Below are positions 36,368 through 52,683 of a stretch of DNA of 64,000 nt, in pieces. The stretch's first letter is position 1. Each line of letters opens with the position of its first letter. Made by a program: the position numbers and the translations under genes. The DNA comes from Robiginitalea sediminis (GTDB taxonomy: Bacteria; Bacteroidota; Bacteroidia; Flavobacteriales; Flavobacteriaceae). Under the pieces are notes generated by a model. That model worked only from the letters and a program-made list of their open reading frames with translations, did not search any database and had not been told where the DNA came from. Location of the stretch: positions 998,296 to 1,062,295 of the forward strand of contig NZ_NGNR01000001.1 in NCBI RefSeq assembly GCF_002198115.1, written 5' to 3'.

Positions 36368-36410
36368 TGATTTTTATCATATTTTCCACACAGTGGCCTT
36401 GGTAGATTTG
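36368..36410 (+). promoter_or_regulatory. hemN promoter with Crp/Fnr-type palindrome
   Basis: TGATTTTTATCA (36368-36379), a perfect palindrome TGAT-N4-ATCA, lies upstream of an exact -7 box TAGATTTG (36403-36410). The palindrome centre is 29.5 bp before the box, about -43 from the predicted start near 36417, the position of a class II Crp/Fnr activator site. The same geometry recurs before ccoS, ccoI and the 52707 gene. Confidence 0.75.
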
Positions 36411-36427
36411 TATCAAACAGCAACATC

Positions 36428-37786
36428 ATGTGTGGATTGGTACAAAAATACAATGTCCCGGGGCCGCGGTATACCAGCTACCCTACCGTGCCGTATTGGG
36501 ACCCCGAGGGCTTCTCGGGCCGGAAATGGAAGGAGTCCGTTACGCGTACCTTTAACGAGACCAACGACTCCCAGGGGATATCCCTTTACATCCATTTACC
36601 TTTTTGCGAAAGCATGTGCACCTTTTGCGGGTGCCATAAGCGCATCACCCGCCAGCACAGCGTGGAAGTCCCCTACATCCAGGCCCTTCTGAAGGAATGG
36701 AAACTCTACCGCGAACTTTTTGGCAAACGCCCCGTTATTCGGGAATTGCATTTGGGCGGCGGTACCCCTACCTTCTTCTCCCCGGAAAACCTGCAAATGC
36801 TCATCCGGGGGCTCTTCCGTGAAGCCGACAGGGCTGCCGATTGGGAATTCAGTTTTGAGGGCCACCCGGGCAATACCACCCGGGAACACCTGCAGGCCCT
36901 GTACGACGAGGGCTTCCGCCGGGTATCCTTCGGGGTGCAGGACTACAACCCGTCGGTGCAGCGCGCGATCAACCGCATCCAGACCTACGACCAGGTAGCC
37001 GATATTACCCGGATCTCCAGAGAGATTGGCTATACCTCAGTGGGGCACGATATCATCTACGGCTTGCCGTTGCAAACCACGGCCCACATGGCCGAGACCA
37101 TCCGCAAAACAGCGGAGATCCGGCCAGACCGCATCGCCCTCTACAGCTATGCGCATGTGCCCTGGCTCAAAGGCAATGGCCAGCGCGGGTTCCGCAAGTC
37201 GGACCTCCCGGCGCCCAAAGAGAAGTTGCGGCAATACCAGCTGGGCAAAAAGGCCTTGCAGGATGCCGGGTACTCCGAGATCGGGATGGACCATTTCGCC
37301 CTCCCGTCAGACGGTCTGTACCGGTCTATGAAAGCCGGGCAGCTGCACCGGAACTTTATGGGCTATACCGTCAGCAATACCCGCCTGATGATTGGCCTTG
37401 GCGTATCGAGCATTGGCGACAGCTGGTATGGTTTTGCCCAGAATGTAAAAAGTATTGAAGAATACGAGCATTTGGTCTCCAACGGCATTTTACCGCTCAT
37501 GCGGGGCCATGCCCTAACCGCAGAGGACGAGCAGGTGCGCCGGCACGTGCTGGACCTGATGTGTCGCTTCGAAACCAAGTGGGATAAAGGACTCCCCGAG
37601 GAGACACGCCGGGAAATTGAAGACCGGCTGCGGGAACCCGAAGCGGACGGCCTGGTGGTCCTGGGCCCGGATCGGTTGTCCGTAACAGAAGACGGCCGGA
37701 TGTTTATCCGGAATATCTGTATGGCCTTTGACTTGCGTTTACACACGAAAGCTCCGGAAACGAGGTTATTCTCTATGACGGTTTAA
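36428..37786 (+). CDS. hemN: Oxygen-independent coproporphyrinogen III oxidase
   Basis: A 452-residue radical SAM enzyme of full HemN length. After the N-terminal YNVPGPRYTSYPTVPYW, the cluster motif is HLPFCESMCTFCGCH with Cys60, Cys64 and Cys67 binding the 4Fe-4S cluster, and Cys69 in the usual fourth position. GGGTPTFFSPENL and the C-terminal HemN domain (NGILPLMRGHALTAEDEQVR) are present. It converts coproporphyrinogen III to protoporphyrinogen IX without oxygen in heme synthesis. A Crp/Fnr-type palindrome precedes it, which fits induction at low oxygen and supplies heme for the cbb3 oxidase. A universal stress gene follows 17 bp downstream, probably in the same operon. Confidence 0.96.
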   Translation: MCGLVQKYNVPGPRYTSYPTVPYWDPEGFSGRKWKESVTRTFNETNDSQGISLYIHLPFCESMCTFCGCHKRITRQHSVEVPYIQALLKEWKLYRELFGKRPVIRELHLGGGTPTFFSPENLQMLIRGLFREADRAADWEFSFEGHPGNTTREHLQALYDEGFRRVSFGVQDYNPSVQRAINRIQTYDQVADITRISREIGYTSVGHDIIYGLPLQTTAHMAETIRKTAEIRPDRIALYSYAHVPWLKGNGQRGFRKSDLPAPKEKLRQYQLGKKALQDAGYSEIGMDHFALPSDGLYRSMKAGQLHRNFMGYTVSNTRLMIGLGVSSIGDSWYGFAQNVKSIEEYEHLVSNGILPLMRGHALTAEDEQVRRHVLDLMCRFETKWDKGLPEETRREIEDRLREPEADGLVVLGPDRLSVTEDGRMFIRNICMAFDLRLHTKAPETRLFSMTV

Positions 37787-37803
37787 CCCCAAAAATGAAA
37801 GCC

Positions 37804-38625
37804 ATGAAAACGATTATCGTACCTGTTGATTTTTCCCACCAATCCGAATATGCGCTGAAGACTGCAGCGTCCCTGGCCCGCAAGCACAAGGCAGAGATCA
37901 TTGTCTTGCACATGCTGGAACTGAATTATGCCATGATCACCTCTTCGGAGGCCTACCATCCGGAACAAACGGTTTTCCTGCTGAAAGCCGCGGAAAAACG
38001 TCTGTCCGAATTCCTGGACCAGTCCTATCTGAAGGGTATTAAAATCACACCGGTAATTAAACATTACAAGGTGTTTTCCGAAGTGAACGACGTTGCCGAG
38101 AACCACAATGCGGATCTTATTGTAATGGGGTCCCACGGCACCGACGGCCTGCAGGAGATCTTCTTCGGCTCCAATGCCGAGAAGGTGGTGCGCCATTCGG
38201 ATATCCCGGTACTGGTGGTCAAGAAGGACCGGCCGGACTTTAAGATCGAGACCTTTGCCTTCGCCTGCGATTTCCGGGAAGACTGCCAGGAGGCCTTCCG
38301 CAAGGCCAAGTCCTTTGCCGATAAACTCGGCGCGGAATTCCGGGCGGTGTATATCAATACCCCGGGCGACCACTTTTTGAGCACTTCCGACATCAACCAG
38401 CAAATTGCCGACTTTTTAAAAGGCGCCAAGGTGGGTATGGAGGTAGACCATTACAGCGATTACAGCGTGGAACGCGGCGTACTGAACTATTCCGAAAGCA
38501 TAGGGGCCGACCTGATCGGCATCCCCACCCATGGCCGAAAGGGGATCTCCCATTTCTTTATGGGAAGCATCGGGGAGGATATCGCCAACCATTCCGGGAT
38601 CCCGGTGATAACCTTCAAGATTTAA
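37804..38625 (+). CDS. Universal stress protein, two tandem UspA domains
   Basis: About 273 residues (start at 37804 gives MKTIIVPVDFSHQSEYALKT; an ATG at 37795 is also possible). The first UspA domain ends with the ATP-binding pattern G-x2-G-x9-G-S at MGSHGTDGLQEIFFGSN, followed by HSDIPVLVV. The second domain has a weaker version, PTHGRKGISHFFMGSIGE, followed by HSGIPVITF. Such tandem proteins are cytoplasmic and often rise in low oxygen or starvation. It follows hemN by 17 bp, so it probably shares the Crp/Fnr-type promoter at 36368-36410. A rho-independent terminator follows at 38647. Confidence 0.93.
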   Translation: MKTIIVPVDFSHQSEYALKTAASLARKHKAEIIVLHMLELNYAMITSSEAYHPEQTVFLLKAAEKRLSEFLDQSYLKGIKITPVIKHYKVFSEVNDVAENHNADLIVMGSHGTDGLQEIFFGSNAEKVVRHSDIPVLVVKKDRPDFKIETFAFACDFREDCQEAFRKAKSFADKLGAEFRAVYINTPGDHFLSTSDINQQIADFLKGAKVGMEVDHYSDYSVERGVLNYSESIGADLIGIPTHGRKGISHFFMGSIGEDIANHSGIPVITFKI

Positions 38626-38646
38626 GATTTTAGTTGCTGTTATGAG

Positions 38647-38683
38647 AAGGGAGGTACGTCCGAAAGGATGTCCTCCCTTTTCT
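38647..38683 (+). terminator. Terminator of the hemN-usp operon
   Basis: AAGGGAGG (38647-38654) pairs with CCTCCCTT (38672-38679); the inner ACGTCC/GGATGT extends the stem past one bulged T to a GAAA loop, and TTCT follows. It lies 21 bp past the stop codon. Confidence 0.75.
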
Positions 38684-38698
38684 ATTGCGGGTCTTTTC

Positions 38699-40087
38699 TC
38701 AGGTGAGCTTCATTGCAGAAGGGTCCCACCCCACGGCTTCGCCCCGGTAATAGCTCTCGTTGGCCAGCAGGGCAGCCCCGGCAGCCCTCAGGCCGAAGGT
38801 AGCGTCCTGTACCACCTTCCGGTTCCCTCTTATGGCGTCGAAGAAATTGAAGAAGTGGTCGTGGTGTGCCCCTTTGTATTCACGGGGCGCCTCCCATACG
38901 GTTTCCCCCAGGTCCAGTAACGCCTCCCGGCCTGGTGCGAGGGTTTTGGCGTATTCGGCGTTGAGGGCTTCCTGGTTGGCTTCCGTCTGGGCCACCATGG
39001 AATATCCTCCGGGCGCCATACCTAGGGCGGTCCGGCTTAGCTTGACCGAGCGCTGCCCCACTTCCATAGACCCCTCGGTGCCCACCATGCGGAACCCTCC
39101 GCCACCCCCGCCCCCGGCGATGAAGTTTACGCGGAAAGCTGCGTTAAAAGCGGCATGGGTAGCCGTCTTGGGGTAATCGTAAAAGGTAAGGGTTACATCC
39201 GGCACGTCCCGGCCATCGTTCCAATAGCGCAGGCCTCCTGTGGAGATAGCACGGACCGGGCCCTGGCTGTCCAGGATATGGTGCAGGGTGGAAAAGGCAT
39301 GGACAAAAAGGTCGCCTGCTACCCCGGTGCCGTAATCCCGGTAGTTGCGCCAGCGGAAAAATCGGGTGTTGTCATACGGGCGTTTGGGAGCATGGCCCAG
39401 GAAGGTATCGAAGTCTACTGTATCAGGGTTGGCATCCGGGGGGATGGGGTATTGCCAGGCCCCTTCGGCCGAATACCGGTCGTTGTACATGTCCAGCATG
39501 ACGATTTCCCCAATGGCTCCCGCCTTGTAAAGCTCCCGTGCCTTCTCGTTGCCGAGGGAGGACATCCCCTGGCTGCCGACCTGGAGGATGCCGCCAGTCT
39601 CCCGTTCTGCAGCGATAATTTCGTGCCCCTCGGCAGGCTTTTGTACCATGGGCTTTTCGCAGTATACCGCCTTGCCCGCCTTGAGCGCGTCGATTACGAT
39701 CCGTTTGTGCCAGTGGTCCGGGGTGGCCACAATGACTGCGTCTATATCCTTTCGGTCCAGGAGCTCCCGGTAGTCGCGGGTCAGGAACAACCCGTCCCCC
39801 CAGAGTTCCCGGGCGCGCTGCAGCCGTCCGGTATAAAGGTCGCAAACAGCCGTGAGGCGTACCCCATCTACCGAAAGGGCAGACCGGGTATCGTAGATAC
39901 CCTGTATCCCACACCCGATGAGCCCGAGCTGGATGGTGTCATTTGCAGCAGTCTGAATAGGGTAGTTTCTAACCAGGGGTTGGGTGCCCCGGGGGGCTGC
40001 GCTGAGGTACGGTCCTGCCGCGAGTCCCGCGGTTGCCAGCCCTGCTTTTTTGAGGAAGGCCCTGCGGTTGGGGGTAGTGTGCTTCAT
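38699..40087 (-). CDS. Tat-exported Gfo/Idh/MocA-family oxidoreductase
   Basis: A 462-residue protein. The ATG at 40087 is chosen because it opens on a twin-arginine signal (MKHTTPNRRAFLKKAGLATAG); the frame stays open further upstream but without coding character. The Rossmann domain reads IQLGLIGCGIQGIYDTRSAL, followed by VIVATPDHWHKRIVIDALKAGKAVYCEKPM with the family EKP motif. The C-terminal domain contains FRWRNYRDYGTGVAGDLFVHAF. Such periplasmic oxidoreductases carry tightly bound NAD and in Bacteroidota act on sugars or 3-keto-glycosides. It faces the hemN-usp terminator on one side, and the CoA-transferase gene lies upstream on the same strand. Substrate unknown. Confidence 0.9.
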   Translation of the reverse strand: MKHTTPNRRAFLKKAGLATAGLAAGPYLSAAPRGTQPLVRNYPIQTAANDTIQLGLIGCGIQGIYDTRSALSVDGVRLTAVCDLYTGRLQRARELWGDGLFLTRDYRELLDRKDIDAVIVATPDHWHKRIVIDALKAGKAVYCEKPMVQKPAEGHEIIAAERETGGILQVGSQGMSSLGNEKARELYKAGAIGEIVMLDMYNDRYSAEGAWQYPIPPDANPDTVDFDTFLGHAPKRPYDNTRFFRWRNYRDYGTGVAGDLFVHAFSTLHHILDSQGPVRAISTGGLRYWNDGRDVPDVTLTFYDYPKTATHAAFNAAFRVNFIAGGGGGGGFRMVGTEGSMEVGQRSVKLSRTALGMAPGGYSMVAQTEANQEALNAEYAKTLAPGREALLDLGETVWEAPREYKGAHHDHFFNFFDAIRGNRKVVQDATFGLRAAGAALLANESYYRGEAVGWDPSAMKLT

Positions 40088-40158
40088 GGTATCTAATGGA
40101 TTTTGGTCACCAAAAGATACATCAAAGCCTTGTGTGTCACAAACACTTATTTTATTCC

Positions 40159-41424
40159 CTACCCGAAACGCTCGTGTGCGGCTGCTTCCAGGGTTTCCCG
40201 GTGGTCCGGGTGGGCAATGGAAATCAGGGCTTTGGCGCGCTGCTGGAGGTTCTTCCCAAAAAGGTCCACGCACCCGTATTCGGTAACCACGTAGTGCACG
40301 TGGGCCCGGGTAGTGGTGACCCCGGCCCCGTGTTTCAGGAAGGGGGTTATTTTGGAGACCCCTTTGGCGGTGGAGGAGGACAGGGCGAAAATGGGTTTCC
40401 CCCCTTCGGAAAGGGATGCTCCACGGATAAAGTCCATTTGGCCTCCCACGCCGGAATACTGGTAGCTCCCGATGGTATCGGCGCAAACCTGGCCGGTGAG
40501 GTCAATTTCAATGGCGCTATTGATGGCCGTAACCCGGGGGTTGGTCCGGATATTGGCGGTGTCGTTGGTATAAGCCGCCTCCCGGAAGTGGACCAGGGGG
40601 TTGTCGTCTATAAAGTCGTAGAGTTTTTGGGAGCCTGCAGCAAAACTCGTTACAATCATGTTGGTGTCGATTTTCTTGCAGGCCCCGTTGATGACCCCGG
40701 AGTGGACCAGGGGGAGGATCCCGTCTGAGAACATTTCGGTATGGATGCCCAGGTTTTTATGTCCCCCCAGGTTCTGCAACACAGCGTTCGGGATGTTGCC
40801 GATCCCCATCTGCAGGGTGGCCCCGTCCTCTACCAGGGAAGCGACGTTGCGGCCTATCTGGGCCTCGGTCTCCGAAATGGGGAGTACGGGGTAGGCGTGG
40901 ATGGGTTCCGAAACTTCCACCAGGGCGTCAATCTGCTTGATATGGATGATCCCATCCCCATGGGTCCGGGGAACCATGGGGTTGAGCTGCGCAATAACTT
41001 TCTTGGCTTTCTGAACCGCAGGCAGGGTCACGTCCACCGACGCCCCAAGGGAGCAGAAGCCGTGCTTGTCCGGAGGGGAAACCTGTACCACGGCCACATC
41101 TACGGGCAGGATGTCGCGCCGGAACAACAGGTGGATTTCACTCAGGAAAATGGGGATGTAATCCCCCTGGTTGGTATTGACCGCCTTGCGGACATTCCCC
41201 CCTACAAAACAGGTGTTGATGCGAAAGGCTTTCCGGTAGGGTTCCTGGGCAAAGAGGACTTCCCCGTCGGTATGGATGGAGATGATTTCCACATCCCGGA
41301 GCTCCTCATGCCGCCGGCAGATCGCATTGATAAGGGTGTTCGGGGTCATGGCTGCGCCTTGTACAAAAATGCGGGTGCCGGATTGTACATAGGCTGCAGC
41401 CTGTTCTAATGAGACTACGTTCAT
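40159..41424 (-). CDS. Acetyl-CoA hydrolase/transferase family (4-hydroxybutyrate-type CoA transferase)
   Basis: A 421-residue family I CoA transferase of the Cat1/AbfT group. The N-terminal domain has SGTRIFVQGAAMTPNTLINA and VQVSPPDKHGFCSLGASVDV. The C-terminal domain carries AINSAIEIDLTGQVCADTIG with the catalytic glutamate, then SGVGGQMDFIRGA. The enzyme moves CoA between acetate, succinate, butyrate or 4-hydroxybutyrate; the substrate pair cannot be read from sequence. It is cytoplasmic. It starts 32 bp after the haloperoxidase gene on the same strand and may share its transcript. Confidence 0.9.
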   Translation of the reverse strand: MNVVSLEQAAAYVQSGTRIFVQGAAMTPNTLINAICRRHEELRDVEIISIHTDGEVLFAQEPYRKAFRINTCFVGGNVRKAVNTNQGDYIPIFLSEIHLLFRRDILPVDVAVVQVSPPDKHGFCSLGASVDVTLPAVQKAKKVIAQLNPMVPRTHGDGIIHIKQIDALVEVSEPIHAYPVLPISETEAQIGRNVASLVEDGATLQMGIGNIPNAVLQNLGGHKNLGIHTEMFSDGILPLVHSGVINGACKKIDTNMIVTSFAAGSQKLYDFIDDNPLVHFREAAYTNDTANIRTNPRVTAINSAIEIDLTGQVCADTIGSYQYSGVGGQMDFIRGASLSEGGKPIFALSSSTAKGVSKITPFLKHGAGVTTTRAHVHYVVTEYGCVDLFGKNLQQRAKALISIAHPDHRETLEAAAHERFG

Positions 41425-41456
41425 GGTTGTTTTTTATGGGTGGTGTTCCGGGCAGC

Positions 41457-42926
41457 TTATGGCTTCTCTGCCCCGATATGCTCCTGGTAAAATGCCCAGG
41501 CCCTTCGGGCTACGTCTCGGCCCAATTCCAGCCCGGCGATATTATCGGCCTGGATGTGGTATCCGCCCATAACCCGGGAGATACCCGCCATTTCGGCGGC
41601 CTCGGTAAAGGTGGGGAACTCCAGTACCACCGTATCGCCGTAATGGGCAGGGTCTGTTTCCGTAAGAGAGCCCGGGACCAGGGAAACCTTCTCCCCGAAA
41701 TAATCGTCGCCCGTAAACAGGCGGAGGGCTTCCCCGCAGGCGCCGCTAACGGTACTGTGGCCGGAGGTATAGCTCGGGAAGGGCGGGCAGAGGAAGGTCT
41801 CAGGGGAGTAGGGCCTCCATTGCTCTCCGGGCATGTCCATCATCCCCTTTCCGGGGCCGCCCCAGGCTTTGATGACCTGCCCCTGGTAATAATCATGCAC
41901 CAGGGCGTATGGCCTGGCAAAGTCATAGAACATCTTGGAATCCCAGGAGGCGATAAAGGCATCCATGGCCGTAACCTGGTTCAGGAAGTACATTTTTACA
42001 TCCTGGTCGAGGGTGTGCTGGTCGCGGCGGCTTACATCCTGTGCGAACTTGAGCCAGTGCCCGGCCTGCTGTACGGATTTGGGCCCGTCCCGCATGAATT
42101 CCACCAGGGCCTTGTCTGCATCGGTCAGGTTGGCCTGCATCTCGATCACTTCCTGCACTTCGCGCTCCAGTTGTTCGGAACCCACCATGGGTGGGGGTCC
42201 CGGGCGGAACTGGCTGGCGGAATCCAGGGCAATAGGCGCTACTTCCTGCCAGTAGGGGGTAAGGCATTCGGGGGCGTACCGCCCGCCCTTGCCATCCGCG
42301 AAATACTTCGGCTGCCAGCGGTTGATATCCGTGTTGTTATCCGGGCTGTTTACCGGTTGGTACCCCGAGTAGTCAAAATAGGGGGTGCCCTCAGATCCGG
42401 GTTCCTCCCCATACTGGTTGGCGCCATCGCCCTTTCGGGCTGCGATGACGGCCTGGGCAGCCAGGTTGCCGATCCCGGCTGGGGTAGTGGGGTCTGTACT
42501 GTGGTTGTCCGGGTCCAGTCCCAACTCCTTCATAAAGTCCCGGAAAAGGGTGCTGTCGGAATAGTAATATTCATTCATGGCCCGCAGCGCGGCATAGCTG
42601 ATGGCGACCTCCTTGTTTTCCAGGGTGCGTTCTGCTTCGGGGACTCGTGCTACCCCTTGCAGGTAAACCGGGGTGGCATTGGCGTCGTAGCGGCTCCAGG
42701 CGTCGAAGACCGCAGTAAAAATCAACCCGAGGTAGCGGGAGGTAATGGTGGGTCTTGGGTTGAAGCGTTCCGTATCCAGGGCAGTGGCCTCCAGTGCCAT
42801 CTCCCCCCATTGGTAGGCGATATTTTCGGCTCCCGTGGGTTCCGGTTCCTGGGCCTGTTTTTGGGTTGCCGGCCCGCAGGCGGCAATAGCGAATAACAAA
42901 AGCGGGAAAATCAGTAACCTTTTCAT
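41457..42926 (-). CDS. Vanadium-dependent haloperoxidase / PAP2-family lipoprotein
   Basis: A 489-residue lipoprotein. The ATG at 42926 is supported by a -7 box at 42957-42964 that excludes the upstream in-frame ATG, and it opens MKRLLIFPLLLFAIAAC with a lipobox. The vanadate site of the family is complete: K-x6-RP in KMFYDFARPY, PSYTSGHS, and SR-x5-H-x3-D in SRVMGGYHIQAD. Vanadium haloperoxidases oxidise halides with peroxide, but many bacterial members of this fold are phosphatases, so activity is open. It acts in the periplasm. The CoA-transferase gene follows 32 bp downstream, and the safE-like gene of the cco cluster lies upstream. Confidence 0.88.
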   Translation of the reverse strand: MKRLLIFPLLLFAIAACGPATQKQAQEPEPTGAENIAYQWGEMALEATALDTERFNPRPTITSRYLGLIFTAVFDAWSRYDANATPVYLQGVARVPEAERTLENKEVAISYAALRAMNEYYYSDSTLFRDFMKELGLDPDNHSTDPTTPAGIGNLAAQAVIAARKGDGANQYGEEPGSEGTPYFDYSGYQPVNSPDNNTDINRWQPKYFADGKGGRYAPECLTPYWQEVAPIALDSASQFRPGPPPMVGSEQLEREVQEVIEMQANLTDADKALVEFMRDGPKSVQQAGHWLKFAQDVSRRDQHTLDQDVKMYFLNQVTAMDAFIASWDSKMFYDFARPYALVHDYYQGQVIKAWGGPGKGMMDMPGEQWRPYSPETFLCPPFPSYTSGHSTVSGACGEALRLFTGDDYFGEKVSLVPGSLTETDPAHYGDTVVLEFPTFTEAAEMAGISRVMGGYHIQADNIAGLELGRDVARRAWAFYQEHIGAEKP

Positions 42927-42956
42927 CGGATCTGGTAGTTGTTTTAGTAGACGCGG

Positions 42957-42964
42957 CAAAAATA
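42957..42964 (-). promoter_or_regulatory. -7 box of the haloperoxidase gene
   Basis: The minus strand reads TATTTTTG, an exact consensus match, with a predicted start near 42950. It separates this gene from the cco cluster and makes the ATG at 42926 the first usable start. Confidence 0.6.
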
Positions 42965-42969
42965 CAATT

Positions 42970-43674
42970 TTAACTGTGGCAGGCCTGAGCCGCGGTAACC
43001 TGCGTCCCCTGGGGAGGTGGTGAGATGTAAGGGATGCCCAGCCCCATGCCCCTGAGGATAAACAACATCCCTATGATCACCACAAACACGGGAATGGCCT
43101 TCCTTAAAACAGGCGCCCATTTTCCCTTAAAAAATTTACCCAGGAGTGCTGCTGCACTCATCAGCGGGATGGTGCCCGCCCCAAAGAGCATCATATACAA
43201 TGCGCCCTCCGGGGCCGAAGCCAGGGCCAGGGCGCCCACAAGGGCCATATAAACCAACCCACAGGGGAGAAAGCCATTGAGGAAGCCGATACTCAGGAAG
43301 GTGTCTGCACTGCCCTCCCGTAATTGCTTACCCAGGGCAGCCTGTAATTTGCCCACCCAGCGGTAGAGGGGGCGGGTAAGCCCCCAGTTCCGGAACCAAT
43401 GCCCCGGAAGCAGGACCGTCAGGATCATAATGACCCCAACGGCAATGGACAGTTTTTGCTGAAAGCCAAACAGGTAGAGCCCTTTCCCTACGAGCCCGAA
43501 AACCAACCCGATAACCCCGTAGGCCAGGATACGCCCCAGGTGGTACAACCCCAGCTGGGCGTACTTCAGGGCCGGCCGCTCCCGGTGCAGGGGCAGCATA
43601 AAGGCAATGGGGCCGCACATGCCGATACAGTGCAGGCTTCCCATAAGGCCGAGGATTAGTGCGGTTGCGAGCAT
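42970..43674 (-). CDS. Sulfite exporter TauE/SafE-family membrane protein of the cco cluster
   Basis: A 234-residue membrane protein with about six helices. The first helix ends in LMGSLHCIGMCGPIAFMLPL; the HCxGMCG motif marks the SafE-like group found with cbb3 oxidase genes and suggests a role with copper. GFLNGFLPCGLVYMAL in the middle repeats a metal-type Cys. It is the last gene of the cco cluster on the minus strand but is separated from fixH by 154 bp containing octamer repeats, so it may have lower or separate expression. Transport of copper for the oxidase is inferred from context only. Confidence 0.82.
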   Translation of the reverse strand: MLATALILGLMGSLHCIGMCGPIAFMLPLHRERPALKYAQLGLYHLGRILAYGVIGLVFGLVGKGLYLFGFQQKLSIAVGVIMILTVLLPGHWFRNWGLTRPLYRWVGKLQAALGKQLREGSADTFLSIGFLNGFLPCGLVYMALVGALALASAPEGALYMMLFGAGTIPLMSAAALLGKFFKGKWAPVLRKAIPVFVVIIGMLFILRGMGLGIPYISPPPQGTQVTAAQACHS

Positions 43675-43680
43675 GCTTTA

Positions 43681-43809
43681 TGTGCTAATGTGTTAATGTG
43701 CTAATGTGCAAATGTGCTAATGTGTTAATGTGCAAATGCTATGATTCCTATTCTTATAAAGGTTAATTTGATTATCCTATCAGTTTACCATCCAATTAGC
43801 ACATTAGCA
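43681..43809. repeat. Octamer tandem repeat TGTGYWAA with inverted copy
   Basis: Seven consecutive 8-bp units run from 43681 to 43736: TGTGCTAA, TGTGTTAA, TGTGCTAA, TGTGCAAA, TGTGCTAA, TGTGTTAA and TGTGCAAA. About 60 bp later ATTAGCACATTAGCA (43795-43809) is the reverse complement of two such units, with one mismatch to the nearest array match. The DNA can fold into a long A/T-rich hairpin. It fills the gap between safE and fixH, starting 6 bp before the safE ATG on the minus strand. Confidence 0.9.
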
Positions 43810-43828
43810 ATTTTTCAAATCAGCATAT

Positions 43829-44275: not shown

Positions 44276-44280
44276 ATTTA

Positions 44281-45699: not shown

Positions 45700-45749
45700 A
45701 ATTTCGGTTGCTTCAGGGGTTCCCGGAACCTGCCCGGCCTGTCAGGAGC

Positions 45750-46724
45750 TTACTGCTCGGCTCCTTCCCCGACAGGGGCAACAGCATCGGCTTCCGATGG
45801 CGCTTCTGCTGCGGTGGAATCCACTTCCATCTCGCCCATAGCAGGGGCATCAGGGTCCTCATAGAGGTCCCCTTCCGCAGCCTTGGCGTCCGGCGGGTTG
45901 GTTCCGTGTAAACTAACTACATAACTGGCGACCTGGGCAATTTCTCCCGGCTTGAGGGTGGTCTTCCATGCGACCATCCCCTTGCCGTCCCGGCCACCTT
46001 CCGAAATGGTGTTGAAGATGTTTTTAATGCCTCCCCCGAGGATCCAGTAGTCGTCTGTGAGGTTGGGGCCAATGCTCCCACCCCCGTCAGCTTTATGGCA
46101 AACGGCACAGTTACCGGTAAAAATGGCTTCCCCTGCACTCAGGTCTGAGGCTTCGGTAAGCAATTCCACCGAACTGGCATCTACCAGGTCCTTGGCGGTT
46201 TTCTTGTATTCCTCCACGGCCAGCCGGGCCTCGGCCATTTCCTGCTCGAATTCCTCCTTCTGGGTGTAATCGCCCATAATGTGGAAACGGACCAGGTAAA
46301 TGGCACCGAAGATGATGGTGGCGTAGAAGAGGTAAATCCACCACGGCGGGAGCCGGTTGTCTAGCTCCTTGATGCCGTCGTAGTTGTGGTCGAGGACAAT
46401 CTCGCCCTCCTGTTCAATCGGTTTACTTGCGGTAAGCTTATCGTAGATGCGCTTGCCCCAGGCCCACTGACGCGGCTTGCTCTGGGCCGCGAGGTAGCGC
46501 TCCTTGGCCTCCTCCGAGAGGGTCTGGAACATGATGTTCTCGATGGACTTCAGAATGAGTTCTATAGCGATCAGCAACAGGAGCACCATCAGCAGGAAGA
46601 ACTGCGTGATGGGATAGGTGATAAATGCGGGTTTTTCTCCCGAGTCGATAAAGTATTCCATCAACGCGAATACGAGGAAGAATAGCACGGTAACCCGGAT
46701 CCATGACGGTACTGAATTTCTCAT
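45750..46724 (-). CDS. ccoP: cbb3 oxidase subunit III, one-heme CcoP
   Basis: A 324-residue membrane-anchored cytochrome. Two or three N-terminal membrane helices (VTVLFFLVFALMEYF; FFLLMVLLLLIAIELIL; IYLFYATIIFGAIYLVRF) are followed by one cytochrome c domain with a single CAVCH heme motif, then GPNLTDDYWILGGG and GMVAWKTTLKPGEI with the axial methionine. Proteobacterial CcoP has two hemes; this protein has one, like other Bacteroidota. Its first 120 residues are an extra membrane region, and its last 40 residues are acidic and Ala-rich. Its ATG overlaps the stop of ccoQ by 4 bp. Confidence 0.92.
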   Translation of the reverse strand: MRNSVPSWIRVTVLFFLVFALMEYFIDSGEKPAFITYPITQFFLLMVLLLLIAIELILKSIENIMFQTLSEEAKERYLAAQSKPRQWAWGKRIYDKLTASKPIEQEGEIVLDHNYDGIKELDNRLPPWWIYLFYATIIFGAIYLVRFHIMGDYTQKEEFEQEMAEARLAVEEYKKTAKDLVDASSVELLTEASDLSAGEAIFTGNCAVCHKADGGGSIGPNLTDDYWILGGGIKNIFNTISEGGRDGKGMVAWKTTLKPGEIAQVASYVVSLHGTNPPDAKAAEGDLYEDPDAPAMGEMEVDSTAAEAPSEADAVAPVGEGAEQ

Positions 46725-46912
46725 TGGTCTGAAGCTTTAGTTGGTTGATCGTCTAAGGGCAGTTCGCTCATTTTCTTAACGTGCTGCTTGGAGGTAGTGG
46801 CCACCCACCAGAACAACACCACGAAGAAGACGAAGAATATAATCAGGGAGATCATGGGGTAGGTCGCTACCCCGTCGATGGTCTCCATATGTTCTTTGAC
46901 AAACTTTAGCAT
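46721..46912 (-). CDS. ccoQ: cbb3 oxidase subunit CcoQ
   Basis: A 63-residue protein with one membrane helix (ISLIIFFVFFVVLFWWVATT) and a short charged tail. It has the size and position of CcoQ, which stabilises the cbb3 complex. The sequence family is short and variable, so assignment rests on its place between ccoNO (3-bp gap) and ccoP (4-bp overlap). Both junctions indicate translational coupling in one operon. Phe/Val-rich spans of this kind fit a single-pass subunit. Confidence 0.88.
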   Translation of the reverse strand: MLKFVKEHMETIDGVATYPMISLIIFFVFFVVLFWWVATTSKQHVKKMSELPLDDQPTKASDQ

Positions 46913-46915
46913 GGC

Positions 46916-49117
46916 TTAGCGTTTTTCGGATGCGATCTCCGTGTTCTGTTCTACTTTGATGTCGGTACCCAGGCGTTGCAGGTAGGCGATCATCGCTACG
47001 ATTTCCCGGTTACGCATCTCGATAAACTCCTCACCGTTGTCCCGGGCATATTGCTTCTGCTCTTCATAGCTGCGGGCAAATTCCGGGTCGGTATAGAGGT
47101 TTTGCTCAATTTGTGCGGCCTGGGCATCCATGGACTCAAAAGCCCCGGCAATATCCTCATCCGTATAGGGCACCCCAAGTGTGACCATGGCCCGCATTTT
47201 ATCCTGTACCGCGCTGCGGTCGTGCTCGTTGCGCACCAGCCACTGGTAGGCCGGCATGATGGAGCCGGAGGAGGTACTCTGCGGGTCGTACATGTGGTTC
47301 AGGTGCCAGCTGTCTGAATACTTGCCTCCCACGCGCAGCAGGTCGGGCCCGGTGCGCTTGCTTCCCCAAAGGAAGGGGTGGTCGTATACAAATTCCCCGG
47401 CTTTGGCGTATTCCCCGTAGCGTTCCACCTCACTGCGGAACGGTCTGATCATCTGGGAGTGGCAGCCCACGCAGCCCTCGCGGATATACAGGTCACGTCC
47501 CTCCAGTTCCAGGGGCGTATAGGGCTTCACGCTGGTAATGGTCGGGATATTGGACTCCACCAGCAGGGTGGGGATGATCTGGACGATCCCCCCAATGAGG
47601 ATGGCAATAGTGGTTAACACTGCAAAGCGCACGGGCAGGCGCTCCAGCCAGGTATGGTATTTTTCCCCGGCCTGGCGGCGGGAATTCACCCGCGCCAGGG
47701 CTGGGGCCTCGGCCAGTTCGTCTTCCACCCCACTACCGGAGCGAACTGTGGCAATAATGTTGTAGAGCATCACGAACATCCCGATCAGGTACATAGTACC
47801 ACCAATGGCACGCATCCAGTACATCGGGAGGATTTCGTTGACAGTTTCCAGGAAGTTACCGTACACCAGGGTGCCATCCGGGTTGAAATCTTTCCACATA
47901 AGGGCCTGGGTAAATCCGGACACGTACATGGGCAGGGCGTAGAGCACGATACCCAGGGTGCCGATCCAGAAGTGGAAATTGGCCAGGGGAACAGAGTGCA
48001 GGCGGGTCTTGAACATTTTGGGGATGAGCCAGTATACCATCCCGAAAGTCAGGAACCCATTCCAGGCCAGTGCCCCAACGTGTACGTGGGCAATAATCCA
48101 GTCGCTGAAGTGCGCAATGGCGTTCACGTTCTTCAGGGAAAGCATGGGCCCTTCGAAAGTGGCCATACCGTAACCGGTAATGGCGACTACCATAAACTTC
48201 AGGACGGGGTTGGTCCGAACCTTATCCCAGGCACCCCTGAGGGTAAGCAATCCGTTGATCATACCTCCCCAGGAAGGGGCGATCAGCATGACGGAGAAAA
48301 CAACACCCAGGTTCTGTGCCCAGTCCGGAAGGGCGGAATACAGCAAGTGGTGCGGCCCGGCCCAGATATAGATAAAGATCAAAGACCAGAAGTGGACAAT
48401 GGAAAGGCGGTAGGAGTAAACCGGCCGGTTAGCCGCCTTGGGTACAAAGTAATACATGAGCCCCAGAAAGGGAGTGGTCAGGAAGAAGGCCACCGCATTG
48501 TGGCCATACCACCATTGCACCAGGGCATCCTGTACCCCTGCGTAAACCGAATAGCTCTTCAGGGCGCTGACCGGCAATTCCAGGCTGTTAAAAATATGGA
48601 GGACCGCCACGGTAATAATGGTGGCCAGGTAGAACCAGATGGCCACGTAGAAGTGGCGTTGGCGCCGCTTCAGCAGGGTCCCTATGAAGTTCCAGGCGAA
48701 AACCACCCATACCACGGCTATTGCGATGTCTATGGGCCACTCCAGTTCTGCATATTCCTTGGAGGTGGTGTACCCCAGGGGAAGGGTCAGGGCAGCCGAT
48801 ACAATAATGAGCTGCCAGCCCCAGAAGTTGATGTTGCTCAACACGTCGTTGAACATACGGGCCTTAAGCAGGCGCTGGGTGGAATAGTACACCCCGGCAA
48901 ACATGGCGTTGCCCACGAATGCAAAAATCACCGCGTTGGTGTGCAGCGGTCGGAGGCGGCCAAAACTCAACCACGAAATCCCGTCGGTTAGGTTCGGGAA
49001 CAGGAACATAAAGGCGAGAAGCAAACCTACCAGCATACCCACCACGCCCCAGAGTAGGGTGGCGTACAGGAACTTCTGCACAATTTTGTTGTCGTAATGA
49101 AACTGTTGGACTTCCAT
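46916..49117 (-). CDS. ccoNO: cbb3 cytochrome oxidase, fused CcoN-CcoO subunits
   Basis: A 733-residue fusion. Residues 1-480 are the heme-copper oxidase subunit I CcoN with 12 helices. Heme and copper ligands are visible in LHTNAVIFAFVGNAM, YGHNAVAFFLTTPFLGLMYY, GPHHLLYSALPDW and IIAHVHVGALAWNGFL. From about 500 on is CcoO, a membrane-anchored cytochrome with one heme site CVGCHSQM, then SDSWHLNHMYDPQSTSSGSIMPAY with the axial methionine. It reduces oxygen to water at low oxygen tension and pumps protons. The fusion is typical of Bacteroidota. It starts 10 bp after ccoS, so both are driven from the Crp/Fnr-type promoter at 49343-49385. Confidence 0.96.
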   Translation of the reverse strand: MEVQQFHYDNKIVQKFLYATLLWGVVGMLVGLLLAFMFLFPNLTDGISWLSFGRLRPLHTNAVIFAFVGNAMFAGVYYSTQRLLKARMFNDVLSNINFWGWQLIIVSAALTLPLGYTTSKEYAELEWPIDIAIAVVWVVFAWNFIGTLLKRRQRHFYVAIWFYLATIITVAVLHIFNSLELPVSALKSYSVYAGVQDALVQWWYGHNAVAFFLTTPFLGLMYYFVPKAANRPVYSYRLSIVHFWSLIFIYIWAGPHHLLYSALPDWAQNLGVVFSVMLIAPSWGGMINGLLTLRGAWDKVRTNPVLKFMVVAITGYGMATFEGPMLSLKNVNAIAHFSDWIIAHVHVGALAWNGFLTFGMVYWLIPKMFKTRLHSVPLANFHFWIGTLGIVLYALPMYVSGFTQALMWKDFNPDGTLVYGNFLETVNEILPMYWMRAIGGTMYLIGMFVMLYNIIATVRSGSGVEDELAEAPALARVNSRRQAGEKYHTWLERLPVRFAVLTTIAILIGGIVQIIPTLLVESNIPTITSVKPYTPLELEGRDLYIREGCVGCHSQMIRPFRSEVERYGEYAKAGEFVYDHPFLWGSKRTGPDLLRVGGKYSDSWHLNHMYDPQSTSSGSIMPAYQWLVRNEHDRSAVQDKMRAMVTLGVPYTDEDIAGAFESMDAQAAQIEQNLYTDPEFARSYEEQKQYARDNGEEFIEMRNREIVAMIAYLQRLGTDIKVEQNTEIASEKR

Positions 49118-49127
49118 AAAAGCGAAT

Positions 49128-49322
49128 TTAGTTGGATTGTTCTGAGGGTTCGGCAGACGGGACTTCCCCTTTGTCCTTCACCACTTCGTCTTCGAATAAC
49201 ATGCGTACCGAAGGGGTATACGCGTCGTCGAACTGGCCATTGCGCACCGAGAAGACAAAGGCGGCAAAGAAAACCAGGGCTACCAATAGGCTGATAGCCA
49301 ACAACATATAAATTACGCTCAT
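49128..49322 (-). CDS. ccoS: cbb3 oxidase assembly protein CcoS
   Basis: A 64-residue single-pass membrane protein. MSVIYMLLAISLLVALVFFAAF is the usual CcoS helix, followed by GQFDDAYTPSVRMLFEDE, where the 'GQFDD...PSVRMLFED' stretch is the family signature. CcoS is needed to insert heme into the CcoN subunit. It is the first gene of the ccoSNOQPGH operon and lies 85 bp after ccoI; that gap contains a Crp/Fnr-type palindrome and a -7 box. Leader length from the predicted start is about 14 nt. Confidence 0.93.
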   Translation of the reverse strand: MSVIYMLLAISLLVALVFFAAFVFSVRNGQFDDAYTPSVRMLFEDEVVKDKGEVPSAEPSEQSN

Positions 49323-49342
49323 ACCCTTACGAAATTTAGGTG

Positions 49343-49385
49343 TAAAACTATACGGAAGCCTTCCGTCAAAATATGATATATATCA
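49343..49385 (-). promoter_or_regulatory. ccoS-ccoNOQP promoter with Crp/Fnr-type palindrome
   Basis: TGATATATATCA (49374-49385), a perfect palindrome, is centred 29.5 bp upstream of the minus-strand box TAGTTTTA (49343-49350), one base from consensus. Between them is a second perfect 7+1+7 palindrome, ACGGAAG-C-CTTCCGT (49352-49366). The geometry matches the hemN promoter exactly. Confidence 0.75.
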
Positions 49386-49407
49386 GTCTTTCTGTGATTC
49401 ATTTCTA

Positions 49408-51780
49408 TTACTCCAGTTTACGGCTAACCCAATTGCTGGCGGCGGTTGTAAAGGCCACGATGCTAATGGAGCTCAGCGGCATCAGGATGGCGGCTATAAC
49501 GGGTTCCAACTGGCCGGTTACGGCAAAATACAGCCCTGCCAGGTTGTAGAGCAGGGACAGCGCAAAACTCACGCGGATAACCTGCATCCCTTTGCGCGAA
49601 ACCTGCAGAAAACGGTCCAGCTGCGGGAACTGCCGGTGGTCCAGGATGGCGTCGCAGGCCGGGGTGAACAAATGGGCATCTTCGGAGATTGCAATCCCTA
49701 CATGGCTCTGGGCCAGCGCCCCGGCATCGTTCAGCCCGTCGCCAACCATGGCCACCTGCTTTCCTTCCTGTTGCAATTCCCTGACAAAATGCAGTTTTTC
49801 CCGGGGGGATTGGTTGAAGTACATGGGGGTCAGCGGTGGCAAAAGGCTTTCGAGCGCCTCCTGCTCTGCGTTGTTGTCTCCGGAAAGGACTGCCAGGCTG
49901 TAGCGTTCCCTAAGCCTTTCGAACAAGGGGCCGGCGCCGTCGCGGTATTTGTTGCGGATCACGAAGCACCCTTTGTAGTCGTCATTCGCGCTGACATGTA
50001 CTTCCGTACCTTCGCCTTCCGAGTTGCTGCCCCCTTTTACAAACCGGCGTGAGCCTACCCGGAGGGATTGCCCCATGGCGCTGCCTTCCAGCCCCATCCC
50101 CAGGTGTTCTTCGAAATGGTCCAGGGGGACGATGCGGAAGGGTTCCAGTTCCCGGTACAAGGCCTGGCTCAGGGGGTGGCCCGAGGCGCGCAGCAGGTTT
50201 TTGAGGGCCCCGGCTTCCTCCTCGCTTAATTCTATCCCGTTATAGGTAATGCTGTTTTGCTGGGCGGTACTGATGGTACCGGTCTTGTCGAAGATCAGGG
50301 TGTCTGCCTGGGCCATCCGCTCCAGGGCGTCTGTATCCTTGACATAAAACCCCTTGCGGCCGAAAATGCGCAGGAGGTTCCCCAGGGTAAAGGGCGCGGC
50401 CAGGGCAATGGCACAGGGGCAGGCGATGATCAGGACCGCGGTAAGAACATCCAGGGAGCGGGAAGGGTCTATCCAAAGCCAGGTGGCGGCGGCCACGGCG
50501 GCAATGGTGATCACGGCCAGGGTAAAGCGCTTGCCAATACGGTCTGTCAGGTTGCGGAAGGCTGAGCGGTGCCCTTTTGAAAAGGCGCTGTCGCTCCAGA
50601 GTTCGGTCAGGTAACTCTGAGAAACGGGTTTGAGTACCTCCACCTCAATAGGCCCCCCGAGTTGTTTGCCGCCGGCATAGATTTTCTCGCCGGAGGCCTT
50701 GACCACCGGGCGTGCCTCCCCGGTAACGAAGCTGTAGTCGATCTCTGCACTCCCGCGGATCAGGATGGCATCGGCCGGGATGAGGGATTGGCTGCGGATC
50801 AGCAGGCGGTCTCCGGTCTCCACCTCGTAAACGGGAACGTTCTCTTCCCTTCCGGAGATCAGCCGGGTGACGGCTATGGGAAAATAGGAGCGGTAATCCC
50901 GCTCGAAGGACAGATAGGAATAGGTGCGCTGCTGGAAATATTTGCCGAGGAGCAAAAAGAACACCAGCCCTGTGAGGCTGTCAAAAAAGCCACTTCCCCA
51001 GTCGAAGGCGATTTCCACCGTACTGCGGATAAAGAGCACGGCAATACCCAGGGCAATGGGCACATCGATGTTCAGTATCCGGCTGCGCAGCCCTTTATAG
51101 GCGGCCTTCATGTAGCCTGAGGCAGAGTAGATAACCACGGGGAGGGAGAGGGCAAACATGAGCCACCTGAAAAACCCCTTGTACTGCTCAATCCAGTATT
51201 CCCCGGTTTCGAAATATTCCGGGAAGGACAGGAACATGATATTGCCAAAGGCAAAGCCCGCAATGCCGAGTTGGTAGATGAGTCGGCGGTCCTTTTTCTG
51301 GTCTCTTCCGCTGTAGTGTTCCAGGGTGATGGAGGGCTCGTACCCGATGGCGGCCAGGAGCTGCACCAAATGCTTTAACCCGATCTTCTCCGGGTTAAAA
51401 TGTACCCGTGCTTCTTTCCTGGGGAAATCGACCTGGCTGGAGAGTACCCCGGGGTTAAGCTTGTGCAGGTTTTCCAGGATCCAGATGCAGGAGCTGCAGT
51501 GGATGTGCGGGATATTCAGGGTGATTACCTGGTGGCTGGTGTCCTGAAAATCGAGCAGGCGGCCGGCGATGTCCGGGTCGTCCAGGAAATCGAATTTCCC
51601 TTCGATGGCCCGGGGGGAACTCCCTGCCGCACCCTCCAGCTCGTAGTAATAATCCAGTTGGTGGTCGTGCAGGATTTGGTAGACCGTTTTGCAGCCGGCA
51701 CAGCAAAAATCCTTTTCATCGTACTGCACGGCCTGATTGCCACAGGGGTCGCCGCAGTGAAAGCAAGAGCTTCCTTCCAT
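49408..51780 (-). CDS. ccoI: Copper-translocating P-type ATPase CcoI (FixI)
   Basis: A 790-residue P1B ATPase. The N-terminal CFHCGDPCGNQAV...CCAGC segment is a Cys-rich metal-binding region found in FixI proteins, followed by a heavy-metal domain with HCSSCIWIL. The membrane CPC motif reads IACPCAIALAAPF. The phosphorylation loop is IFDKTGTIS, the actuator has TGEARP, and the hinge has MVGDGLNDAGAL. CcoI exports copper to the periplasm for the CcoN active site. The gene is divergent from the Crp/Fnr gene; the palindrome at 51859-51870 serves both. AGGAGG lies 15 nt before its ATG, an unusually plain Shine-Dalgarno for this phylum. Confidence 0.95.
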   Translation of the reverse strand: MEGSSCFHCGDPCGNQAVQYDEKDFCCAGCKTVYQILHDHQLDYYYELEGAAGSSPRAIEGKFDFLDDPDIAGRLLDFQDTSHQVITLNIPHIHCSSCIWILENLHKLNPGVLSSQVDFPRKEARVHFNPEKIGLKHLVQLLAAIGYEPSITLEHYSGRDQKKDRRLIYQLGIAGFAFGNIMFLSFPEYFETGEYWIEQYKGFFRWLMFALSLPVVIYSASGYMKAAYKGLRSRILNIDVPIALGIAVLFIRSTVEIAFDWGSGFFDSLTGLVFFLLLGKYFQQRTYSYLSFERDYRSYFPIAVTRLISGREENVPVYEVETGDRLLIRSQSLIPADAILIRGSAEIDYSFVTGEARPVVKASGEKIYAGGKQLGGPIEVEVLKPVSQSYLTELWSDSAFSKGHRSAFRNLTDRIGKRFTLAVITIAAVAAATWLWIDPSRSLDVLTAVLIIACPCAIALAAPFTLGNLLRIFGRKGFYVKDTDALERMAQADTLIFDKTGTISTAQQNSITYNGIELSEEEAGALKNLLRASGHPLSQALYRELEPFRIVPLDHFEEHLGMGLEGSAMGQSLRVGSRRFVKGGSNSEGEGTEVHVSANDDYKGCFVIRNKYRDGAGPLFERLRERYSLAVLSGDNNAEQEALESLLPPLTPMYFNQSPREKLHFVRELQQEGKQVAMVGDGLNDAGALAQSHVGIAISEDAHLFTPACDAILDHRQFPQLDRFLQVSRKGMQVIRVSFALSLLYNLAGLYFAVTGQLEPVIAAILMPLSSISIVAFTTAASNWVSRKLE

Positions 51781-51827
51781 TCTGGTTAGTTGTTACCTCC
51801 TAAGTTAAGGGTTTGTCAATACCCCTG

Positions 51828-51903
51828 CAAAAATCGAATTTGTCAAAAAGGCAAAAGATGACATCTGTCAACTTTCAGAAATGTTCAAATTTGGCTACAT
51901 TTA
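51828..51903. promoter_or_regulatory. Bidirectional ccoI / Crp-Fnr gene promoter region
   Basis: TGACATCTGTCA (51859-51870) is a perfect palindrome TGAC-N4-GTCA. Leftward, GATTTTTG (51828-51835, minus strand, 7 of 8 matching TAnnTTTG) begins exactly 29.5 bp from the centre and would serve ccoI. Rightward, TACATTTA (51896-51903) begins 31.5 bp from the centre and would serve the Crp/Fnr gene, with a start near 51910. Autoregulation is therefore likely. Confidence 0.7.
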
Positions 51904-51922
51904 CATAGGTTTTTTTTCGGGT

Positions 51923-52615
51923 ATGGAAGAACATCGTTGCGAAAATTGCATTGTCAGGAAGTTCAACGCCCTGAGAGCTATGAGTAAGGAGGAACTCAAG
52001 GCTGTTTCCGATGCAAAGATCACCAAGTCCTTAAAAAAGGGCGACCCGCTTTTTGAGGAAGGCGAGAAGCTGAACGGCGTCTTTTGCGTAAGGGCAGGGG
52101 TCTCCAAACTGTCCAAGCTCAGTTCCAACGGCAAAGACCAGATTGTAAAGCTCGCTACCAAGGGCGAGGTTATCGGCCAGCGCTCGGTAGTGGCAGAGGA
52201 GACTTCAAACCTCAGTGCCAAGGCTGTAAGCGATATGGAAGTCTGCTTTATTCCCAAGGAAGCCATTGTCAGCACCCTCCACAAAAACCCGGACTTCACC
52301 TTTGAGGTCCTCAGGCATATGGCGCACGACCTTCGCGAGGCGGACGACGTTATTGTAAACATGTCCCAGAAGACCGTCAAACAACGTATTGCAGAAGCCT
52401 TGTTGTATCTCAAGACCAACTTCGGGGAAGACAGCGAGGGATTCCTGGCCCTGGTGCTTTCCCGGGAGGATATCGCCAATGTGGTGGGTACGGCCACCGA
52501 GTCCTGCATCCGCATCCTCTCCGAATTCCGCTCCAAAGGGTATATTGAAACCTCTGGAAAACGGATGGCCATTACCGATGAGCGGAAGCTCAGGGACCTG
52601 GCTGAAGGTTTTTAG
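51923..52615 (+). CDS. Crp/Fnr-family transcriptional regulator
   Basis: A 230-residue regulator. The ATG at 51923 (MEEHRCENCIVRKFNALRAM) is chosen because the upstream in-frame ATG at 51881 lies before the -7 box. Residues 25-140 are a cyclic-nucleotide-binding fold; 150-225 are a Crp-type winged helix with LSREDIANVVGTATESCIRIL. Its recognition helix keeps the Glu and Arg that in Crp and Fnr read the TGA core. Cysteines are at 6, 9 and 55 near the N terminus; the four-cysteine Fnr cluster pattern is not clearly present, so the sensed signal is open. It is divergent from ccoI and close to hemN-like targets carrying TGA-N6-TCA sites. Confidence 0.92.
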   Translation: MEEHRCENCIVRKFNALRAMSKEELKAVSDAKITKSLKKGDPLFEEGEKLNGVFCVRAGVSKLSKLSSNGKDQIVKLATKGEVIGQRSVVAEETSNLSAKAVSDMEVCFIPKEAIVSTLHKNPDFTFEVLRHMAHDLREADDVIVNMSQKTVKQRIAEALLYLKTNFGEDSEGFLALVLSREDIANVVGTATESCIRILSEFRSKGYIETSGKRMAITDERKLRDLAEGF

Positions 52616-52640
52616 GCCGGTTTAAAAAAAATACCAAACC

Positions 52641-52683
52641 TGACCATTATCATTATTTACGGCGCCTGCCACGGCTATATTTA
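52641..52683 (+). promoter_or_regulatory. Universal stress gene promoter with Crp/Fnr-type palindrome
   Basis: TGACCATTATCA (52641-52652; core TGA-N6-TCA) is centred 29.5 bp before TATATTTA (52676-52683), one base from the -7 consensus. The predicted start is near 52690, 17 nt before the ATG at 52707. Confidence 0.65.

Follow-up and report, generated by a model that had tools for sequence, protein, structure and literature searches.

A 64,000-nucleotide stretch of the Robiginitalea sediminis genome (contig NZ_NGNR01000001.1, positions 998,296 to 1,062,295; hereafter the window) contains four TGA-N6-TCA palindromes that serve five promoters. These promoters precede hemN, genes of a cbb3-type cytochrome oxidase (ccoS-ccoNO), the copper pump gene ccoI, a universal stress gene (usp) and, starting at position 51923, the gene of a Crp/Fnr regulator (fnr; hereafter the 51923 protein). 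The palindromes very probably serve as class II activator sites in a low-oxygen regulon of FNR-like type, with the 51923 protein as one reader and a protein joining a receiver domain to a Crp/Fnr protein (REC-Fnr) as a second. This kind of system, an FNR-type class II regulon, is already known. The new parts are the arrangement of the putative cluster ligands, the interchangeable candidate readers and a weak ccoI box.

The mechanism that we infer is as follows. A Crp/Fnr-family dimer would bind TGAY-N4-RTCA at -41.5 of a flavobacterial sigma-A promoter, where TAnnTTTR lies at -12 to -5, and the bound dimer would recruit RNA polymerase. The 51923 protein, with an Fe-S cluster on four cysteines, would bind DNA at low oxygen and raise the expression of the cbb3 oxidase (ccoSNO), the copper pump (ccoI), haem synthesis (hemN), stress proteins and its own gene. 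The REC-Fnr response regulator, whose gene adjoins a histidine kinase gene, would bind the same sites and could replace the 51923 type over evolution.

Palindromes and boxes in the window, the genome and the family

An earlier note on this DNA had placed palindromes at 36368, 49374, 51859 and 52641, and all four were found there. Counted from the palindrome end to the first base of the -7 box, the spacer measures 25 bp for the Crp/Fnr gene and 23 bp for each of the other four promoters (hemN, ccoS, ccoI, usp). These measured spacers match the claimed centre-to-box distances of 31.5 and 29.5 bp, respectively. The elements are as follows.

36368..36379, + strand: palindrome TGATTTTTATCA of the hemN promoter
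36403..36410, + strand: -7 box TAGATTTG of the hemN promoter, spacer 23
49343..49350, - strand: -7 box TAGTTTTA of the ccoS promoter, spacer 23
49374..49385, - strand: palindrome TGATATATATCA of the ccoS-ccoNO promoter; relatives carry a site at the same position
51828..51835, - strand: -7 box GATTTTTG of ccoI, spacer 23, first base off consensus
51859..51870, no strand: palindrome TGACATCTGTCA, common to the divergent ccoI and fnr promoters
51896..51903, + strand: -7 box TACATTTA of fnr, spacer 25
52641..52652, + strand: palindrome TGACCATTATCA of the usp promoter; relatives carry a site at the same position
52676..52683, + strand: -7 box TATATTTA of the usp promoter, spacer 23

The palindrome alone is not clearly enriched. 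TGA-N6-TCA occurs 14 times in the window for 9.06 expected, and 9 of 100 shuffles reached 14. The earlier note had put the chance figure at about 16, and the bare palindrome does lie near chance. The narrower form TGAY-N4-RTCA is present in only four of these 14 matches, which are exactly the four sites. The palindrome followed by TAnnTTTR 22-26 bp downstream is found four times in the window, whereas 150 order-2 Markov sequences averaged 0.013 such matches, with 1 as the highest count. The near-chance count of the bare palindrome could favour the idea of chance palindromes close to AT-rich promoters. For the group of sites, this idea is refuted by the count of 4 versus 0.013 expected once a box at fixed distance is required, as the earlier note had argued, together with the conservation of the sites in position.

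In Flavobacterium psychrophilum, the map of transcript starts in the main text of Guerin et al. (2021, PMC9723704) puts TAnnTTTG between -12 and -5. Because the palindrome centre lies 29.5 bp above the first T of the box, it falls at -41.5. This is the class II position in the Escherichia coli FNR test promoters described in parts of PMC4214427 and PMC4505428. By this geometry, which borrows the F. psychrophilum start map, the claim of a class II site near -41 is borne out, and the assignment of a class II FNR-type arrangement to the sites is supported.

We searched the R. sediminis genome (3.30 Mb, 15 contigs) for TGAY-N4-RTCA followed by TAnnTTTR, with the pattern read backwards as a control. 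With the spacer left free between 8 and 38 bp, 27 matches were obtained for 1 control match. Twenty-two of the 27 have a spacer of 21-27 bp: 18 of exactly 23, 2 of 24 and 2 of 25. The regulon had been described as a local low-oxygen one. Its targets are of low-oxygen type, in agreement with the second half of that description, but 22 sites across the genome (control 1) exclude a purely local regulon, and the pattern recurs throughout the family.

Downstream genes were assigned by family searches for some and by eye for the rest. Besides hemN, ccoS-ccoNO and the 51923 regulator gene, sites precede a divergent pair encoding a KorA-type 2-oxoacid oxidoreductase and a ferredoxin, a pyruvate:ferredoxin oxidoreductase gene, the gene of a [NiFe]-hydrogenase small subunit with the large subunit gene next to it, and a phosphoenolpyruvate carboxykinase gene. 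Another site lies before a pyruvate phosphate dikinase gene, named from a partial sequence that scored below the model cut-off. Further sites precede the gene of an S30AE protein (ribosome hibernation, HPF type), a divergent thioredoxin/Usp pair and further Usp genes, a cytochrome c gene followed by Sec-type NosZ, a second cytochrome-type lipoprotein gene and a PAS sensor kinase gene. Many of these are anaerobic energy genes, and the predicted target set fits low oxygen. In F. psychrophilum under oxygen limitation, the cbb3 oxidase is strongly up and haem enzymes are up, as described in the main text of PMC9723704. Neither "crp" nor "fnr" appears in that main text, and our literature search, covering open-licence papers, found no named regulator of the low-oxygen switch in Flavobacteriaceae.

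When the first base of the box was left free at a spacer of 23 bp, ccoI and a CBS-domain protein gene were added, with 0 controls. Two genes named by eye also joined the list: one for a TonB-type receptor, and an Rrf2-like one that diverges from the cytochrome c-NosZ cluster. At the TonB-dependent-receptor-like gene (L224, G000:C9:409735-409777), the palindrome stands 23 bp from the non-T-first box AAACTTTG. A weak first base may flag further activator-dependent promoters.

Conservation was examined in 110 loci of 51923 orthologues (one being the own gene) and in 80 long loci, the best 80 of 572. TGA-N6-TCA is present within 250 bp upstream of fnr in 97 of the 110 loci (8.5 expected from shuffles), compared with 1 of 110 for a stretch inside the gene. 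The site claimed for the regulator's own gene is thus conserved. Across the 80 long loci, there were 217 matches of the strict pattern (spacer 22-25) and 0 backwards, with at least one match in every locus. The matches peak where ccoS, fnr and the usp gene downstream of it are located in the window, neighbours not having been annotated locus by locus. The scan of related genomes that the earlier note had proposed, and the conservation on which it had staked the palindromes, thus came out in their favour.

The ccoI box was first suspected of being an artefact, as strict TAnnTTTR was found on that side in only 1 of 110 loci, and this suspicion was dropped given nAnnTTTG at exactly 23 bp in the sequence logo. 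Counts were made on 79 distinct regions (83 rows) of the 110 loci, with TGAY-N4-RTCA 35-90 bp before the fnr start. On the ccoI side, nAnnTTTG lies exactly 23 bp away in 72 of the 79 regions and at another spacer between 10 and 45 bp in 2, in support of the claimed ccoI promoter. On the fnr side, TAnnTTTR lies at 22-25 bp in 58 regions (spacer 23 in 54, spacer 25 in 4), and both boxes are present in 58. The fnr spacer of 25 bp occurs in 4 of the 110 loci, including the own gene. Since the first base of the ccoI box is never T in the 72 regions having it (C 49, G 12, A 11, T 0), the pattern suggests that this box is kept weak so that activation would depend on the bound protein.

At a larger scale, 199 genomes of the family gave 3919 pattern matches for 844 controls. 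In a sample of 148 genomes of the phylum, judged by eye, a motif excess extends to other genomes of the order and to some from elsewhere in the class. It is absent in many others, including numerous genomes of one family (f15). Homologues of the 51923 protein at E <=1e-44 were found in 19 of these 148 genomes.

The genes of the window locus are listed below. hemN and the usp gene 8 bp after it probably form an operon. By eye, the single 733-residue frame at 46916-49117 seems to be a naturally occurring CcoN-cytochrome c fusion, whose cytochrome part is CcoO-like and bears a CVGCH motif.

36428..37786, + strand: hemN, oxygen-independent coproporphyrinogen III oxidase (TIGR00538, 415.3 bits, cut-off 325)
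37795..38625, + strand: usp, universal stress protein (PF00582), starting 8 bp after hemN
46916..49117, - strand: ccoNO, fused cbb3 oxidase CcoN-CcoO, 733 residues, named from sequence features and the earlier note rather than a family search
49128..49322, - strand: ccoS-like open reading frame (ORF), 64 residues, first ORF after the site, named from the earlier note
49408..51780, - strand: ccoI, heavy-metal P-type ATPase, 790 residues (PF00122, PF00403, PF12156); the name ccoI is from the earlier note
51923..52615, + strand: fnr, Crp/Fnr regulator, 230 residues (PF00027, PF13545), with Cys6, Cys9, Cys55, Cys108 and helix-turn-helix Glu193 and Arg197
52707..53564, + strand: usp, universal stress protein, 285 residues (PF00582)

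Two candidate readers of the sites

The 51923 protein has the domains of the Crp/Fnr family: PF00027 (cNMP-binding-like) at 64.2 bits and PF13545 (Crp helix-turn-helix) at 61.4 bits. The Glu and Arg announced for its recognition helix are Glu193 and Arg197, and the pair is invariant in 22 aligned orthologues. It has four cysteines, Cys6, Cys9, Cys55 and Cys108, which never vary in 111 close rows, where the own gene is counted twice, or in 40 distant rows. The full set of 168 rows (155 distinct) was drawn, with overlaps, from the top 80 of 572 loci, from 70 of the 119 orthologues in the family and from 19 phylum matches. Among the 155 distinct homologues, which include other families of the phylum, the four cysteines are all-or-none: 153 have all and 2, from one genus, have none.

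In an alignment with E. coli-type FNR, Cys6 corresponds to ligand 20, Cys9 to ligand 23 and Cys108 to ligand 122. The column of ligand 29 never holds a cysteine (Asn 137, Ser 15, Gly 1, gap 2 in the 155), and the 51923 protein has Asn15 there. Cys55, invariant among the 153, lies in the beta-roll domain and is without counterpart among the FNR ligands. Most likely, an oxygen-labile Fe-S cluster is bound by the four cysteines, and a cluster with a moved ligand would be the simplest reading of the pattern.

The two homologues that lack the cysteines (L218 and L219, both from a single genus that lies outside the family) nevertheless retain a recognition helix of similar sequence. Their genomes (G210 and G290) show a motif excess, with 22 sites (control 2) and 26 sites (control 1). 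Such proteins could represent a third way to control the same sites. Their placement in a tree was judged unreliable and was not used.

The R. sediminis genome also encodes a 356-residue protein that joins a receiver domain (PF00072, 109.5 bits) to a Crp/Fnr protein. The gene follows that of a PAS histidine kinase, which itself carries a site; the GAF match of this kinase is below cut-off. The fusion has the marks of a response regulator, with the motif CDIMMP or CDVMMP, bearing the phospho-acceptor Asp, in 21 of 21 rows (one being the own gene repeated) and a kinase adjacent. All four cysteines are absent from it. The sequence of its recognition helix is GTATETAIR, compared with GTATESCIR in the 51923 protein, and varies in other fusions (GIATESLIR and others). 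In a tree of the 21 fusion rows and 56 Fnr-type proteins, the fusions group together in a single clade (support 0.956), which falls outside that of the Fnr proteins (0.731). The fusion gene lies within about 4 kb of an fnr orthologue in 10 of the 49 genomes having both, as judged by eye.

Some neighbours of the fusion genes were recorded. The own kinase-REC-Fnr locus (L191, G000:C9:44500-60500) lies near usp genes and genes that look by eye like pta/ackA, and the gene downstream of the pair has a Sigma70 region 4 match just above cut-off (26.1 vs 25.7 bits). In three relatives (L201, L202, L204), the pair has genes for Usp and thioredoxin close by (named by eye), and several of these carry the same sites.

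Co-occurrence of readers and sites, and competing readings

Reader lists were compiled by hand for 199 family genomes, with E <=1e-44 for an orthologue of the 51923 protein (Fnr) and E <=1e-40 for the fusion. The excess is the number of sites over control. Both these cut-offs and the excess threshold of 8 were chosen after the scores were seen. An Fnr orthologue is present in 119 and a fusion in 86 of the 199 genomes. Fractions are quoted for the 166 genomes at least 90% complete, the 33 below 90% being left out. An excess of at least 8 was found in 47/48 genomes with both readers, 39/58 with Fnr only, 32/35 with the fusion only and 0/25 with neither. With all 199 genomes, these fractions become 48/49, 47/70, 33/37 and 2/43. 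The difference between either reader and neither has p = 8e-14 in the 166 genomes, with no correction for phylogeny.

The cbb3 promoter was followed in the first 15 Fnr-only and first 15 fusion-only genomes by list number, at the same completeness. ccoNO is present in 27 of these 30 genomes (misses G078, G024 and G026), compared with 1 of the 25 genomes with neither reader, that one at 34% identity. A strict site stands at ccoNO in 13/13 Fnr-only and 13/14 fusion-only genomes. Fnr-only and fusion-only genomes both keep sites. A single promoter code thus appears to be common to two proteins under different control, either of which can apparently be lost.

Several observations weigh against the interpretation that we favour. 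Among the 58 Fnr-only genomes, the excess is below 8 in 19 and below 4 in 7. The co-occurrence is uncorrected for phylogeny and many genomes with neither reader are small, although the ten of the latter that measure 2.9-5.0 Mb have an excess of only -6 to 7. Some genomes counted as fusion-only hold weaker Fnr-like matches (1.4e-36 in G075, 4.3e-36 in G036), and one fusion-only genome, G040, is without a site at ccoNO. In the own genome, two sites look like chance, one ahead of an rnpA-like ORF (L004) and the other ahead of a lipoprotein-like ORF (L012), and single sites of this sort may have that origin. As to the ligands, 5 of the 153 proteins (L166, L217, L220, L152 and L151) carry one more cysteine, placed 4-11 residues beyond Cys9. 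A third N-terminal cysteine may thus have been kept, or regained, alongside Cys55 in some branches, and these five proteins are possibly intermediates between the E. coli-type and flavobacterial ligand sets.

The earlier note had the 51923 regulator controlling hemN, the cbb3 oxidase, ccoI, the stress genes and itself. The class II geometry, the targets and its own conserved site agree with this claim, but the regulator is not the sole candidate reader. The REC-Fnr fusion, alone or with the 51923 protein, might drive these promoters and leave the 51923 protein an auxiliary role. Such a division is conceivable though unlikely. Fusion-only genomes keep both the sites and the cbb3 site, both proteins are encoded in the own genome, and there is a site at the kinase gene beside the fusion. 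Moreover, in 11 fusion-only genomes at least 90% complete, the 51923 protein as query found just one match at E <=1e-10, presumably the fusion itself, and 10 of these 11 have an excess of at least 8 (by eye). Yet Fnr-only genomes also keep the sites, including every cbb3 site sampled, so that the 51923 type seems sufficient there, and the promoter of the 51923 gene has its own conserved site.

The signal could also be nitric oxide or general redox state, with the cysteines forming a cluster reactive to either, or a thiol switch. The four cysteines do not by themselves imply oxygen, and one own-genome site lies before the cytochrome c-NosZ cluster and the divergent Rrf2-like gene. We hold this reading to be rather improbable: the target followed across genomes, the cbb3 oxidase, is induced by oxygen limitation in a relative according to the main text of PMC9723704, and many other targets are anaerobic energy genes. 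It is very improbable that another Crp/Fnr paralogue, of the L026, L027 or L028 type, reads the sites. The own genome does have six cNMP-domain proteins, and L026, which stands beside one site and has an ExxSR helix (by eye), could bind some of them, a further point against our preferred interpretation. However, 18 of the 25 genomes with neither reader have cNMP-domain proteins, up to 12 each with all types pooled, without an excess of at least 8; therefore, some Crp/Fnr-type protein is not enough.

We return to a probable FNR-like low-oxygen regulon with two candidate readers. A fuller proposal, which we regard as somewhat on the likely side, is that Flavobacteriaceae and some relatives in the phylum possess a distinct class of FNR with its cluster on Cys6, Cys9 and two cysteines of the beta-roll, Cys55 and Cys108, so that the third ligand would have left the N-terminal loop. 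In this proposal, the cis code would outlive its reader, the Fe-S FNR being exchanged for REC-Fnr, or both being kept, while the -41.5 cbb3 site and others stay, and the ccoI box would be conserved as weak.

The sea and coastal sediments are rich in flavobacteria. The promoter code would let low-oxygen gene sets, including nitrous oxide reductase and uptake hydrogenase, be predicted from sequence in many genomes. The all-or-none cysteines make the putative ligand arrangement directly testable, and fusion-only genomes would be a natural case of sensor replacement at unchanged promoters.

Comparison with known systems

Among solved structures, the top sequence match of the 51923 protein is PDB 2gau (1e-26), a Crp/Fnr protein of Porphyromonas gingivalis. 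In that alignment, it is without cysteine at the positions of Cys55 and Cys108, and Cys6 and Cys9 lie beyond the aligned stretch. With the NCBIfam Fnr model PRK11161, the 51923 protein scores 99.6 bits, under the cut-off of 228.

The likeness to E. coli FNR includes the Crp/Fnr fold, the Glu and Arg of the recognition helix, the -41.5 centre, anaerobic targets and a cysteine at three of the four cluster-ligand positions (20, 23 and 122). The E. coli ligand set is Cys20, Cys23, Cys29 and Cys122, as given in part of PMC4214427, whereas the 51923 protein is without an equivalent of Cys29 and has Cys55 instead. The E. coli FNR box is TTGATNNNNATCAA, as given in part of PMC4505428. Here, its TGAY-N4-RTCA core is kept, but the outer T and the outer A are each found in 0 of 211 sites in relatives, which come mostly from three promoters. 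In the own genome, the outer T of TTGAT has a frequency of 0.11 in 18 sites. The promoters differ too, with a Bacteroidota -7 box here.

The box of CRP, the cAMP receptor, is TGTGA-N6-TCACA. In the same 211 sites, the base before TGA is C in 138, A in 66, G in 7 and T in 0, and so is not G as a rule. In the rhizobial FixL-FixJ-FixK system, a kinase and a response regulator feed a Crp/Fnr protein that controls the cbb3 oxidase and its copper pump. The system described here resembles it in linking a kinase and a response regulator to putative Crp/Fnr control of the same two functions. It differs in that receiver and Fnr are joined in one chain and the kinase is of the PAS-HisKA-HATPase type. There is also a likeness to the oxygen-limitation response of F. 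psychrophilum, where, in the main text of PMC9723704, cbb3 and haem genes go up at low oxygen and promoters are of the TAnnTTTG type.

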